From positions 157,637-221,636 of the forward strand of contig QHSX01000039.1 of assembly GCA_003221695.1 (NCBI GenBank): DNA of 64,000 bases, read 5' to 3'. This DNA is from Candidatus Rokuibacteriota bacterium. Its GTDB lineage: Bacteria > Methylomirabilota > Methylomirabilia > Rokubacteriales > CSP1-6. The notes beneath the pieces were generated by a model. It saw only the letters and a program-made list of their open reading frames with translations. It did no database searches and had not been told where the DNA came from. Both the position numbers and the translations under genes were made by a program. Below, piece by piece: positions 4,741 to 42,519 of this stretch (position 1 is its first letter; each line of letters begins with the position of its first letter).

Positions 4741-5508
4741 ATGAACGGAGAACGCAAGCTGGCGCTGTTCATCGACTTCGAGAACATCGCCCGCGGAGTC
4801 AAGGAAGCACAGTACAAGGCCTTCGAGATCAAGCTGGTGCTCGAGCGACTGCTGGAAAAGGGCAAGATCATCGTCCGGCGAGCGTACGCGGACTGGAACC
4901 GCTTCACCGAGTACAAGCGCCCGTTCCACGAGTGGGCGATCGAGCTGATCGACGTCCCGCAGAGCCGCTACAGCGGCAAGAACTCGGCCGACATCCGCAT
5001 GGTCGTGGACGCGCTCGACCTGGCCTATGGCAAGACCCACATCGACTCGTTCGCGCTGGTGTCGGGCGACTCGGACTTCTCGCCGCTCGTCTCCAAGCTG
5101 CGTGAGAACGACCGTTACGTGATCGGCCTCGGCGTGAAGTCGTCGTCGTCCGACCTGCTCGTCGCCAACTGCGACGAGTTCATCTTCTACGAGGACCTGA
5201 TCCGCGAGACGAAGAAGACCAGCCTCCTGCGCGGGCTACCCGAGAAGAAGGCGGAGGCGATGACCCAGCTCATCGATGCGATCCAGGCGCTCCAGCGCGA
5301 GAACAAGGAGACGCTCTGGGGGTCGATGGTCAAGCAGACGATGATCCGCAAGAACCCCGCGTTCAACGAGTCGTACTACGGCTTCTCGACCTTCTCGAAG
5401 CTCCTCGAGGAGGCGGCCAAACAGCGGATCGTGACGCTCGAGCGGGACGAGAAGAGCGGCACCTACGTCATCACGTCACTCGTCGAGGAGGGCGGCCGCG
5501 CCGCCTAA
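4741..5508 (+). CDS. NYN (LabA/DUF88-like) domain protein with C-terminal OST-HTH/LOTUS-like region
   Basis: MNGERKLALFIDFENIARGV...KNSADIRMVVDALDLAYGKTHIDSFALVSGDSDFSPLVSKLRENDRYVIGLG; C-terminal NPAFNESYYGFSTFSKLLEEA. Confidence 0.9.
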   Translation: MNGERKLALFIDFENIARGVKEAQYKAFEIKLVLERLLEKGKIIVRRAYADWNRFTEYKRPFHEWAIELIDVPQSRYSGKNSADIRMVVDALDLAYGKTHIDSFALVSGDSDFSPLVSKLRENDRYVIGLGVKSSSSDLLVANCDEFIFYEDLIRETKKTSLLRGLPEKKAEAMTQLIDAIQALQRENKETLWGSMVKQTMIRKNPAFNESYYGFSTFSKLLEEAAKQRIVTLERDEKSGTYVITSLVEEGGRAA

Positions 5509-5524
5509 CGGGGCGCCGCCGGGC

Positions 5525-5980
5525 CTAGGGCCACGGCGCGATCAGCTCGTCGATCGACAGGACGCCGGCCCCGCCGATCAGGGTCGACAGCGCCATCGCG
5601 ATCAGAGCCAGGTTGAATTCGTACCCGTGGCCCTGCGCGGGCGTGAGCGACCAGTTCAGGAAGAACCCGTGCCGCGCGTGCACCTTCTTGATCGCCACGA
5701 GCATGACCGCGATGAGCGCGAGCGCCACCGGGCGCGCCAGGAGCCCGATGATCATCGCGAGCCCGCCGAAGCACTCGATGCACGCCGCCGTCACGGTCGC
5801 CGCGGGCGGGATGTTCATCTGGCGGAAGCCGGCGATGGTCTGCGCGAGCCCGCGGCCGCCGAACCAGCCGAAGACCTTCTGCGCGCCGTGCGCGAAGAAG
5901 ATCACGCCCAGGATCAGCCGCACGACCAGGTGTGACCAGGAGGGATACGTCCCGAACACGAGGTCGATGAGCCCTTGCAT
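5525..5980 (-). CDS. DoxX family membrane protein
   Basis: MQGLIDLVFGTYPSWSHLVVRLILGVIFFAHGAQKVFGWFGGRGL..., typical DoxX N-terminus; ATG at 5980 chosen inside the longer ORF. Confidence 0.88.
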   Translation of the reverse strand: MQGLIDLVFGTYPSWSHLVVRLILGVIFFAHGAQKVFGWFGGRGLAQTIAGFRQMNIPPAATVTAACIECFGGLAMIIGLLARPVALALIAVMLVAIKKVHARHGFFLNWSLTPAQGHGYEFNLALIAMALSTLIGGAGVLSIDELIAPWP

Positions 5981-6064
5981 GGCGCCTCCTTGCGAGCGTA
6001 TCCTCGCCGCGTGACGCCCGTGACGAGCCGGGCCCGCCGGGCGCGGCGAGTGTACTACACTTGG

Positions 6065-6643
6065 ATGCGCGTCCTCCCGGGGCTCGTGCTCTTCGGTGCG
6101 TGGGCGGTGGGCGCGGCCGCGCAGGTCTCGCTGTCCGTCTCGCCCACCATGGTGAAGGGCCCGATCGACGCGCCGGTCACGATCGTCGAGTTCTCCGACT
6201 ATCAGTGACCCTTCTGCCGTCAGCTCCAGCGGTCGCTGGAGCAGGTGCTGAACGACTCCGGAGGTCGGGTCCGCCTCCTCTTCAAGGACCGCCCCCTCGC
6301 GATGCATCCGCGCGCGCGGGCCGCCCACGAGGCGGCGCGCTGCGCGGGGGCCCAGGGCCGGTACTGGGAATACCACGACCGTCTCTTCGCCGGGCAGCCG
6401 GCGTTCCGTGCGGAGGACCTTCTCGCCTATGCCGCTGCCCTCGGCCTCGACCGCGCGGCCTTCGCGCGATGCGTGCAGGAGCGACGCTTCGGTCCCGAGG
6501 TCGAGGCGGACGTGGCCGAGGCCGTGGCCCTCGGCGTCTTCGGCACGCCGACCTTGTTCGTCAACGGGCGGCGGGTCGAGGGGCTCGTCCCCGTCGCCGA
6601 GCTTCGCTCGATGATCGCGGATGCGTTGAAGGCGCCACGCTGA
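6065..6643 (+). CDS. Putative selenoprotein: secreted DsbA-family (Thioredoxin_4-like) oxidoreductase with in-frame TGA at 6206-6208 (Sec in a UPFC motif)
   Basis: MRVLPGLVLFGAWAVGAAAQVSLSVSPTMVKGPIDAPVTIVEFSDYQ[TGA]PFCRQLQRSLEQVLNDSGGRVRLLFKDRPLAMHPRARAAHEAARC...FGTPTLFVNGRRVEGLVPVAEL. Same frame on both sides of TGA; TGA sits at the first Cys of CxxC; hairpin follows; stop overlaps the next start (TGATG). Confidence 0.88.
6223..6242 (+). promoter_or_regulatory. Putative bacterial SECIS hairpin of the DsbA-like gene
   Basis: GCTCCAGC-GGTC-GCTGGAGC: perfect 8-bp stem with a GGTC tetraloop starting 22 nt after the TGA. Confidence 0.82.
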
Positions 6644-6951
6644 TGCCGTTCGTGAAGGTGGCCGAGGTCGGCGCCATCCCCGTCGGGAAGGGCACGCTCG
6701 TCGAGCGCGACGGGGTCACGCTCGCCGTGTTCAACGCGGGGGGCGGGCGGTTCTTCGCGACGAGCCCGCGCTGCCCGCACGACGAAGGGCCACTCGCCGA
6801 GGGGTGGCTCGAGGGAGACACGATCGTCTGCCCCTGGCACGGCTACGACTTCGAGCTCCCGACGGGCCGCTGCCGCGTGGACGAGGACCTCGCGGTCGCC
6901 GTCTATCGCGTCCGCGTCAACGGCACGGCGATCGAGGTGGACGTCCCGTGA
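6643..6951 (+). CDS. Rieske-type [2Fe-2S] ferredoxin
   Basis: CPHDEGPLAEG...IVCPWHGYDFELPTGRC, Rieske CxH...CxxH motif. Confidence 0.93.
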   Translation: MPFVKVAEVGAIPVGKGTLVERDGVTLAVFNAGGGRFFATSPRCPHDEGPLAEGWLEGDTIVCPWHGYDFELPTGRCRVDEDLAVAVYRVRVNGTAIEVDVP

Positions 6952-7274
6952 GCGAGCCGCCGCGGAGCCTGTACGTCACGGCCGACGGCCAGCCGTGGCT
7001 GGAGCGTCGCCCGGGCATCCACTGGAAGATCCTGTGGGAGGAGGGCGACCGGAAGGCCGTGCTGATGCGCTACGCTCCCGGCGCGACGATCCCGCGCCAC
7101 CGGCATGCAGGCGACGAACAGATCTTCGTGCTGGAGGGCGCCGTGTCGGACGACACCGGTACGTGCACTCGAGGAAACTACGCACGGCGACCGCCCGGCT
7201 GCGTCCACCGCGTGTGGAGCCCCGAGGGCGCCCTGGTCCTGGCGATCATGACGGGAGGGACGGAACCCGTCTGA
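6948..7274 (+). CDS. Cupin-domain protein
   Basis: GTG start; YAPGATIPRHRHAGDEQIFVLEGAVSDDTG...PPGCVHRVWSPEG. Confidence 0.85.
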   Translation: MSEPPRSLYVTADGQPWLERRPGIHWKILWEEGDRKAVLMRYAPGATIPRHRHAGDEQIFVLEGAVSDDTGTCTRGNYARRPPGCVHRVWSPEGALVLAIMTGGTEPV

Positions 7275-7349
7275 GGGATTTCCACAGAAGCGCGCACCCC
7301 AGGGTTGCGTAGCGTCAGCAAAATGACTAGTGTAGGGGGACTCGTACCC

Positions 7350-18748: not shown

Positions 18749-20005
18749 ATGAAGATGAAGGTGATCCTCGTCCGCACGCTCGCCGCCGGTCTCAACGTGG
18801 CGCTCGCCACGACGCTCGCCGTTCCGCCGACGGCGCATGCCCAGGGCGGGCCCATCAAGATTGGTCTCCTGGCGCCGCTCACCGGCGCCGCGTCGGCGCT
18901 CGGCAAGGACATGCTGAACGGGACCGAGCTCTATCTGGATGGCATCGGCTTCCAGGCGGCCGGGCGGAAGGTCGAGCTGATCGTGGAGGACACGGAGGGA
19001 AACACGGCGACCGCGCTCACCAAGGCGCGAAAGCTCGTCGAACAGGACAAGGTGCACGTCCTGACCGGTGGGCTGCTCGCCTCGACGGGCTACGCGCTCC
19101 ATCCCCTCGCCGAGGCCCAGCGGATCCCGACGACGTACCCGGTCATGTCCTCCGACGACCTCACCCAGCGGAAGCCGGCGAAGTGGGTCGTGCGGACCGG
19201 CTGGAACTCGAGCCAGTCCATGCACGTCTTCGGCGAGTGGGTGGCCAAGACGCTCAAGTACAAGAGGATCGTCACGATCGGCCTCGACTACGCGTTCGGC
19301 TGGGAATCGGTCGGCGGCTTCCAGCGCACCTTCGAGGACAACGGCGGCCAAGTCATCCAGAAGATCTGGACGCCGCTCAACACCAACGACTTCGCGCCGT
19401 TCGTCACGCAGATCAAGCGGGAGGCCGACGCCGTCTTCGCGGTCTTCTTCGGGCGCGCGGCCCTGCAATTCGTGAAGCAGTACGAGACGGCCGGCCTCAA
19501 GGGTCGGGTGCCGCTGCTCGGGAACGGCACGACGACGGACGAGTCCGTGCTGCCGCAGATGGGCGACGAGGCCCTCGGGATCATGACCGCGCTCCACTAC
19601 TCGGCGGCGCTCGACAACCCGGCCAACCAAAAGTTCGCGAAGGCCTTCGAGGCCAAGGCCGGTAAGATCCCCTCCTACTACGCCGAGACCTGCTACACCA
19701 ACGCGCGGTGGATCGTCGAGGCCGTGAAGGCGATCGGCGGCCGGGTCGAGGACCGCGAGGCGCTGCTCGCCGCGCTCCGTCGGGTGGAGCTCCGCGACTT
19801 TCCGCGCGGCCCGGTGTCCATCGACCGCTGGGGCAATCCCGTCCAGAACATCTACGTCCGCAGGGTCGACAAGGTCGGCGGCAAGCTGCAGAATTCCGTG
19901 ATCGCGACGTTCCCCGCCGTGAGCCAGTTCTGGAAGTACGACCCCGACGAGTATCTGAAACAGCCGCTCTACACGCGCGACCATCCACCGTGCCCACACT
20001 GTTGA
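18749..20005 (+). CDS. Branched-chain amino acid-type ABC transporter substrate-binding protein, ends PPCPHC
   Basis: GPIKIGLLAPLTGAASALGKDMLNGTELYLD...; within the liv operon. Confidence 0.92.
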   Translation: MKMKVILVRTLAAGLNVALATTLAVPPTAHAQGGPIKIGLLAPLTGAASALGKDMLNGTELYLDGIGFQAAGRKVELIVEDTEGNTATALTKARKLVEQDKVHVLTGGLLASTGYALHPLAEAQRIPTTYPVMSSDDLTQRKPAKWVVRTGWNSSQSMHVFGEWVAKTLKYKRIVTIGLDYAFGWESVGGFQRTFEDNGGQVIQKIWTPLNTNDFAPFVTQIKREADAVFAVFFGRAALQFVKQYETAGLKGRVPLLGNGTTTDESVLPQMGDEALGIMTALHYSAALDNPANQKFAKAFEAKAGKIPSYYAETCYTNARWIVEAVKAIGGRVEDREALLAALRRVELRDFPRGPVSIDRWGNPVQNIYVRRVDKVGGKLQNSVIATFPAVSQFWKYDPDEYLKQPLYTRDHPPCPHC

Positions 20006-40797: not shown

Positions 40798-42519
40798 CTA
40801 GTGCCCGGCGGCCGCCGCCGGCCGCAGGTGGTCGAGTCCCGCCTCGAGCCCCTTCTTCCCGACCCGGATCCCGACGGGCTTCGCGAAGTTCAGCGTCGCG
40901 TAGGTCTCCTCTCGCGGAACGACCGTGTGCCCGAACCGTCGGAGCCCCTCGAGCGCCTTGTCGCCGACGCGCGCGTCCACGAGCAGCTCGTCCCCTTCGG
41001 TGTGCAGGCGCGGAGCCTCGATCGCCGCCTGGAGCGAGCCGCGCGCGTCCACGAGGGTCGCGATCACCTGTGGGATCGCCGAGACGATCCGACGACCGCC
41101 GGGCGCGCCGAGCGTGAGGCACGGCTCGCCCCTCAGGAAGGCGAGCAGAGGCACCATGTTGACGAGCGCGCGCTTGCCGGGCCCGATCGAGTTCGGCTTG
41201 CCGGGCTCGGGGTCGAACCAGATCATGCCGTTGTTGAGCAGGATCCCGGTGCCCCTGACGACCACCCGCGAACCGAAGAGCGACACGGCCGTGTGAGTCA
41301 GCGAGACCATGTTGCGTGCCTTGTCGACGACGCCGATGTGCGTCGTGCACTCGTCGCGCCCTCCGCGGCCGCGTGCCCGTGAGGCGGGGGCGCGGGGGGC
41401 CGCCGGGCGAGTGTCGTTCCGAGCGGAGGCGGCCCCCCGCGTCCCCGCCCCGGTGCGTCCGGGACGGCGGAGGTCGGCGGCGATGGCCTGCGCGTACGGC
41501 TTCGACGCCAATTGGTCCCACGGTGCTTTGACGATGGCCGAATCGCCCAGGTGAAGGAACCGGTCGCGAAAGGCCCGTCGGATCGCTTCGGCGCGGAAGT
41601 GCAGACCGGCGGTCGTCTGCCAGCCGACGTCATGGGGCGCGAAGTGGTCGAGGATGTTGAGGATCTCGAGCGCGGTGATCCCGCCCGTCGCGCCCGGGGC
41701 CAGGGCGAGATCGAGGCCGCGGTAGCGACCCGTGAGCGGCGGGCTCACGCGCACCTCGTACGCGGCGAGGTCGCCTTTCGTCAGCAGACCGTCGCCCGCG
41801 GCCATCTCGTCGTGGATCGCCTGGGCGAGGGCGCCTCGGTAGAAGGCGTCCGGCCCCTCACGCGCGATCAGGGCGAGGCTCCGCGCCAAGTCCGGGTATG
41901 CCACGCGCTCGCCCGGCTCGAGCGAGGGCGGGCGGTGGATCGCGCGGCCGTTCCGCAAATAGACGCGTGCCGCCTCGGGGAAGGCGCCCAGCTCCTCGAT
42001 GTAGCGCGCGGTCGTCAGCGCCTGATACCAATCGGGGACGAAGCCGTCGCGCGCCAGCGCGATCGCCGGCGTCAGCACGTCGGCGAGCTCCATCGTCCCG
42101 TACCGCTCGAGCGCCAGGGCGAGCCCGGCGACCGACCCGGGCACGGCCACCGACCGATGGCCATACTCGTTCGCTGCGTTCTCGACGCGCGGCCACGCGA
42201 AGAGGCCCTCCGACACCCCACCGATCAGCCGGAACATGGTTGCGTCCGCGCGCGCCGGGGCCTGGCCGTTGAAGTCGATCGCCACGGTCTCGCCGCGCGT
42301 CGCGAGATGCACGAGCATCGTGCCAGAGCCGGCGAGCGTGGACATGAAGGGCTCGACGACGGTCATCGCGAACGCGGTCGCCACGGCCGCGTCCACGGCG
42401 TTGCCGCCCTCCTCGAGGATCGCGGCGCCCACGCGGGCGCCGAGCGGATGCTCGGCGACCACCAGGCCCCGCGAGGCCAGCGGTGTCTGCTTCGTCACGA
42501 CCAGCTGGGACTGGATCAT
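40798..42519 (-). CDS. Gamma-glutamyltransferase family protein
   Basis: MIQSQLVVTKQTPLASRGLVVAEHPLGARVGAAILEEGGNAVDAAVATAFAMTVVEP...CTTHIGVVDKARNMVSLTHT...LTLGAPGGRRIVSAIPQVI. Confidence 0.92.
   Translation of the reverse strand: MIQSQLVVTKQTPLASRGLVVAEHPLGARVGAAILEEGGNAVDAAVATAFAMTVVEPFMSTLAGSGTMLVHLATRGETVAIDFNGQAPARADATMFRLIGGVSEGLFAWPRVENAANEYGHRSVAVPGSVAGLALALERYGTMELADVLTPAIALARDGFVPDWYQALTTARYIEELGAFPEAARVYLRNGRAIHRPPSLEPGERVAYPDLARSLALIAREGPDAFYRGALAQAIHDEMAAGDGLLTKGDLAAYEVRVSPPLTGRYRGLDLALAPGATGGITALEILNILDHFAPHDVGWQTTAGLHFRAEAIRRAFRDRFLHLGDSAIVKAPWDQLASKPYAQAIAADLRRPGRTGAGTRGAASARNDTRPAAPRAPASRARGRGGRDECTTHIGVVDKARNMVSLTHTAVSLFGSRVVVRGTGILLNNGMIWFDPEPGKPNSIGPGKRALVNMVPLLAFLRGEPCLTLGAPGGRRIVSAIPQVIATLVDARGSLQAAIEAPRLHTEGDELLVDARVGDKALEGLRRFGHTVVPREETYATLNFAKPVGIRVGKKGLEAGLDHLRPAAAAGH

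Follow-up and report, generated by a model that had tools for sequence, protein, structure and literature searches.

A predicted exported selenoprotein of the DsbA/Thioredoxin_4 family, conserved across a rokubacterial family

Known DsbA-like selenoproteins and the rokubacterial gene

DsbA-like selenoproteins with a UxxC active site have been described since 2005-2006. Nine such sequences were found in the Sargasso Sea (PMC1088965) and 63 and 18 in the GOS data (PMC2398784), others are from Anaeromyxobacter and Desulfotomaculum (PMC1794560), and the group is included in a 2026 catalogue (PMC13188914). The preliminary description of the locus studied here had remarked that DsbA-like homologues containing selenocysteine (Sec) were already known, correctly in view of these surveys, and the novelty of the rokubacterial gene (hereafter Sec-DsbA) is limited, since its kind is known. 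Our literature search found no paper on selenoproteins of Rokubacteria, a group of which we know no cultured member. In the catalogue, 63 selenoprotein genes are predicted for one Methylomirabilota MAG (PMC13188914), and the Sec-DsbA gene may already be among these. What is new here, and well supported by sequence comparison, is that a group of orthologues with a SECIS of its own extends through a whole family of Rokubacteria.

The gene lies in a stretch of 64,000 nucleotides (the window) from contig C35 of a 4.6-Mb draft genome with an estimated completeness of 100%. The features discussed below are as follows.

5525..5980, minus strand: DoxX-family membrane protein, divergent neighbour (PF07681, 1.2e-19)
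5999..6004, plus strand: TATCCT, a -10-like hexamer in leaderless geometry, 6 nt before GTG 6011; presumed function
6011..6643, plus strand: Sec-DsbA gene, 210 aa with Sec66; Pfam match; likely GTG start, placed by conservation; stop TGA 6641-6643
6011..6121, plus strand: putative signal peptide, ending in VLPGLVLFGAWAVGAAA before Q; translation inspected by eye
6206..6208, plus strand: predicted Sec UGA codon, first residue of UPFC; TGA kept in the family, TGC/TGT in Cys homologues
6223..6242, plus strand: bacterial SECIS-like hairpin GCTCCAGC-GGTC-GCTGGAGC, with an 8-bp stem and a GGUC loop; assessed by folding, covariation and a codon-preserving null
6643..6951, plus strand: Rieske [2Fe-2S] protein (PF00355, 2.1e-16); its ATG at 6643 overlaps the Sec-DsbA stop
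6948..7274, plus strand: cupin (ChrR-type) gene following the Rieske gene (PF12973, 1.7e-21)

Translation of the window showed the TGA at 6206-6208 to be the sole stop in its frame before the TGA at 6641-6643, so that the sequence reads as it had been described, with a single interruption. The start codon had been placed at ATG 6065, a codon absent from the closest relatives; an in-frame GTG lying 18 codons further upstream, at 6011, is conserved instead. In about 30 relatives, TAT(C/T)CT or a close variant lies 6-9 nt ahead of an in-frame start codon, which is GTG in almost every case. GTG 6011 is therefore the likely start, giving a product of 210 aa with Sec66, and its spacing from TATCCT suggests a leaderless transcript. 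GTG 6050 was not preferred as a start, because some relatives have GTC or GTT at this position. The N-terminal codons between 6030 and 6060 include a stretch conserved at the nucleotide level in many relatives (CGRTCGSCGCGAGTSTAC), which may be coding or regulatory. The N-terminus of the 210-aa product, inspected by eye, is rich in arginine and continues with a hydrophobic stretch up to AAA followed by Q; it is a putative signal peptide, and the protein would be exported.

The read-through product matched the Pfam families Thioredoxin_4 (1.3e-29) and DSBA (8.1e-24; 84.9 bits against a cut-off of 25.6), with alignments extending from before the TGA to well past it. The TGA falls at the first cysteine position of the active site of these families (DYQ-U-PFC), at which the best-matching solved DsbA-like proteins have cysteine. 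Across 51 homologues, three positions are invariant (numbering of the aligned segment): Sec/Cys37, Cys40 and the proline of GTPT, which we take as the cis-proline. The AlphaFold model of the protein is confident (pLDDT 94.8, pTM 0.89), and its predicted strands and helices follow one another as expected for a thioredoxin fold carrying a helical insertion like that of DsbA. The family assignment is thus based on sequence profiles and on this model. A search of the GTDB genomes with the pattern F-x-D-(Y/F)-(Q/E)-U-P-(F/Y)-C yielded at least 80 loci, from Desulfobacterota, Chloroflexi, Acidobacteria, Nitrospirae, Planctomycetota, Myxococcota and other groups among those listed. All 80 loci listed match the window protein, all but three at about 1e-14 or better; the three (L111, L115 and L171) are cut-short or brief loci with E values of 8e-7 to 2e-8.

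The overlap of the Sec-DsbA stop with the start of a Rieske gene had also been claimed, and both the ATG at 6643 and the identity of the Rieske protein (PF00355) bear this out. A Rieske motif downstream and a divergent DoxX gene are found beside Sec-DsbA in many relatives. No Rfam match was obtained for positions 5500-7300, and a PHROGs search gave no match. Two further TGA codons of the window were considered as selenoprotein candidates and rejected: that at 20003 (CPHC-U) is an ordinary stop that separates the gene of an ABC binding protein from an ATPase gene in the same frame, and the candidate at 41380 had no Pfam match.

Conservation and probable decoding of the TGA

A search of the phylum identified TGA at exactly the same codon in the orthologues of 47 of the 57 family genomes, and cysteine in place of Sec in three (G005, G083 and G086). 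The Sec orthologues and these three Cys forms grouped together as one clade (SH-aLRT of 100), separated from the Sec homologues of other phyla, and the branch lengths within the Sec clade are substantial. The Cys homologues align at the Sec position and homology continues through the TGA, both of which had been expected. G083 and G086 belong to the same genus as the Sec-bearing G021, G084 and G085, and these genomes, together with G005, provide natural matched Cys/Sec pairs for asking what benefit selenium confers. The coexistence of the two orthologue forms in one genus is seen on comparing L074 and L075 with L060, L076 and L077, and the Cys forms lack the hairpin. Two homologues, L105 and L138, come from records titled Klebsiella pneumoniae and Nitrospirae and group elsewhere than these titles would suggest, L138 being 83% identical to the window protein; they are probably misassigned or contaminated MAGs.

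This distribution bears on whether the TGA is merely a decayed cysteine codon, in a pseudogene or through a sequencing error. TGA is one base away from TGC and TGT, and it serves as an ordinary stop elsewhere in the same genome, for example at 20003. However, the same TGA recurs in 47 genomes of the family that were assembled separately, the region downstream of it is under purifying selection (dN/dS of 0.39-0.43 in three congeneric pairs), the hairpin is conserved and the Sec machinery is complete. No decay was observed in the relatives, the lone further stop within a match (L053) lying at the natural C-terminal end. We consider a pseudogene or sequencing error extremely improbable.

The TGA might instead be a real stop, with GTG 6245 as the start of a second, independent gene. 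The ORF of 132 aa that begins there is the expected automated call, but it lacks the active site, and both the homology and the hairpin cross the TGA in every Sec relative, making two separate genes very improbable. Standard annotation would cut the Sec-DsbA gene at the TGA, and the active site would be lost in dozens of genomes.

The hairpin has the geometry previously attributed to it: it starts 14 nt past the TGA, its loop starts after 22 nt, and its stem has 8 bp. The bacterial SECIS model allows a loop of 3-9 nt, a stem of 4-16 bp, G in the first two loop positions, a spacing of 16-37 nt and an MFE of -7.5 or lower (PMC13188914 Fig. 2A), and the hairpin lies within it for loop (4 nt), stem (8 bp), GG, spacing (22 nt) and energy. 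Its folding as a single sequence is unexceptional (z = -0.88), and a loose filter for motif plus hairpin is passed by 20 TGA sites of the window, 6206 included and 20003 the most striking of the rest, so that we rejected hairpin strength as stand-alone evidence. As the hairpin alone does not exceed chance, it is conservation, of the TGA and of the hairpin, that decides the case.

Comparison between relatives was more informative. In 33 aligned sequences, both sides change in four of the eight stem pairs, with 12 compensated cells observed against 6.0 in shuffles (0/500). The covariation score was 0.129, compared with 0.068 in shuffles (0/500), and sliding the partner strand by 1-3 columns reduced pairing from 86% to 17-44%. 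The other four pairs never vary, and the covariation therefore rests on the outer four. Since the stem is also coding, randomisation of synonymous codons was used as the null. The complete set of six inner pairs is present in 76% of the natural sequences and in 7% of these codon-preserving randomisations, and a folding energy of -7.5 kcal/mol or lower was obtained for the 20-nt stem in all 46 unique Sec sequences, 26% of the randomisations and none of nine Cys homologues. The codons of the stem are fixed (CAG and CTG in 46/46 each, arginine always CGG and serine always TCG), whereas nearby codons vary. These comparisons indicate that the hairpin is maintained by selection and that the encoded amino acids do not explain it. 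The loop is GGUC in the majority of the Sec sequences (27 of 46), and AGGU, GGGC or GGAC in the others.

The presence of selA, selB, selC and selD in the parent genome had been proposed as a check, and all four were found. The tRNA-Sec scored 69.8 bits, over the Rfam cut-off (RF01852), with the anticodon tca according to ARAGORN; selA (588 bits) and selB (374 bits) overlap and lie about 1 kb downstream of it. The selD gene (342 bits; L031:2440-3762, minus strand; G000:C35:113035-113976) has an in-frame TGA itself (CAG-U-ASK), and SelD is likely to be a second selenoprotein of this genome. Of 60 genomes of the class, that of the window among them, 56 yielded selB, and the Sec trait is therefore probably an ancient one in this lineage.

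Because the TGA is conserved, the SECIS-type hairpin shows paired changes and the Sec machinery is present, the UGA very probably encodes Sec, and we regard Sec-DsbA as almost certainly a genuine selenoprotein. Each computational check named in the preliminary description came out in favour of that reading. An exported, disulfide-handling Sec protein kept across a whole rokubacterial family would point to a lasting requirement for selenium among these inhabitants of soil and groundwater.

Probable function and other rokubacterial candidates

Our overall reading, to which we assign a probability of roughly 0.93, is that the gene encodes an exported DsbA/Thioredoxin_4-family selenoprotein with hairpin-directed Sec66 and, most likely, a reducing or repair role. 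Comparative evidence suggests that SelB carrying Sec-tRNA(Sec) would bind the hairpin just 3' of the UGA, and that Sec would be inserted at residue 66 as the nucleophile of U-P-F-C. The protein would then be exported, as its N-terminus suggests. By analogy with the family, Sec66 would attack disulfides, sulfenic acids or peroxides in the envelope, and Cys69 would resolve the selenenylsulfide; the protein would work in a reducing or repair direction, in the manner of DsbG/DsbC, and not as a DsbB-dependent oxidase.

No DsbB or VKOR was detected by HMM searches at E <= 0.001 in the draft genome of the window. The searches, which were positive in control genomes, found no VKOR in the window's genus (four genomes) and no DsbB in 40 genomes. 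The label 'DsbA-family' thus stands for the fold family, which Pfam supports, and not for the classical DsbA pathway, because neither DsbB nor VKOR was detectable in the genome. A CcdA/DsbD-type membrane protein (DsbD_TM) is encoded beside a TlpA/ResA-like gene (C35:117521-118171). This channel and potential partner, and the lack of detectable DsbB and VKOR, moderately favour a reductive or repair role, although we put the chance of the reductive direction itself at about even. A function in reduction or linked to peroxide is more likely than oxidation of the classical DsbA kind.

The selenoprotein could instead be a periplasmic oxidase, a true DsbA. In relatives, VKOR would restore its oxidised state, and in the window's genus oxygen, peroxide or a partner not yet recognised would do so. 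Its UPFC/UPYC/UPHC motif resembles the CPxC of DsbA, Sec-VKOR candidates (see below) and Sec-DsbA are found together in three genomes, and a search of family genomes found VKOR in about half, many of them with the Sec protein, so that an oxidative role is possible in those relatives. The failure to find VKOR in any of that genus's four genomes or DsbB in any of the 40 genomes, together with the presence of CcdA/DsbD_TM, argues against an oxidase, which we retain as a tentative alternative.

Selenocysteine at the nucleophile position favours peroxide chemistry, and the protein might therefore be a selenium-dependent reductase of peroxides or sulfenic acids that shields exported proteins. A redox or antioxidant role is assumed for most selenoproteins of prokaryotes (PMC13188914), which is in keeping with such a function, but no peroxidase-specific motif was found, and fold and motif are of the thiol oxidoreductase type. 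We consider a dedicated reductase of this kind unlikely, and a reducing or repair role remains the preferred reading.

Three rokubacterial genera were found to have VKOR-family proteins (PF07884, about 39 bits) whose genes contain a single in-frame TGA, at a codon common to all three. In these homologues (G018, G020 and G010), the TGA takes the place of the second cysteine of CxxC, giving CPLU, and a conserved GCGGC-GGTC-GCCGC hairpin lies about 26 nt past it. The candidates are as follows.

L215, G018:C31:30842-31144: Sec-VKOR candidate
L216, G020:C107:4538-4837: Sec-VKOR candidate
L217, G010:C355:965-1360: Sec-VKOR candidate

VKOR is not named in the text of the 2026 catalogue (PMC13188914). 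Sec-VKOR (CPLU) is possibly a new selenoprotein family and, if Sec were confirmed, would be one not found in that catalogue (PMC13188914). Rokubacteria may have a selenium-based thiol pathway in the envelope, in which the carrier resembles DsbA and contains Sec (UPxC) and its quinone-linked membrane partner VKOR is likewise a selenoprotein in some genera (CPLU). The window's genus, which lacks the VKOR partner, would then employ Sec-DsbA in reduction or in a function linked to peroxide; we regard this proposal as doubtful for the moment. A second, separate DsbA/Thioredoxin_4 clade with Sec was also observed, consisting of L083 (G028:C61), L084 (G007:C142) and possibly L093 (G057:C130). Its members have UPFC or UPYC and a different downstream sequence, and are related to Sec forms from Acidobacteria; the member in the window genome (L086) has cysteine.

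Comparison with described systems

The best NCBIfam match of the window protein is NF041057 (E value 7.9e-27, aligned across the active site), with 94.4 bits, below the curated cut-off of 190 for membership. This family comprises Rcas_1661 family thioredoxin-like (seleno)lipoproteins, described as DsbG-like selenoproteins, whereas no lipobox was seen in the window protein. By sequence profile, Sec-DsbA shares its family and a CPxC-type site with E. coli DsbA and DsbG, with the structures 4pwo and 3eu3 (BdbD) and with ScsC-type proteins. It differs from E. coli DsbA/DsbG and from the solved DsbA-like proteins, which have cysteine, in the predicted Sec, and the DsbB partner was not found here.

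The hairpin shares with the SECIS of E. coli fdhF its GGUC tetraloop and its position directly 3' of the UGA. The fdhF loop had been given as GGUC in the preliminary description, and the fdhF segment, found in 5396 of 5426 E. coli genomes, does fold with this loop. The stems of the two hairpins are unrelated, that of Sec-DsbA being a continuous 8-bp helix with no bulge, and the loop starts 22 nt past the UGA, compared with 18 nt in fdhF; the loop varies in the relatives.

The closest described system is form 1 of the DsbA-like selenoproteins (PF01323), which is characterised by a PF01323 match together with UxxC, and both were found here (UPFC). Sec-DsbA agrees with this form in fold family, in having Sec first in UxxC, in a bacterial SECIS right after the UGA and in the existence of Cys homologues. 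It differs from form 1 in general in belonging to an orthologue group that is confined to Rokubacteria in our tree (SH-aLRT of 100) and has a stem sequence of its own.
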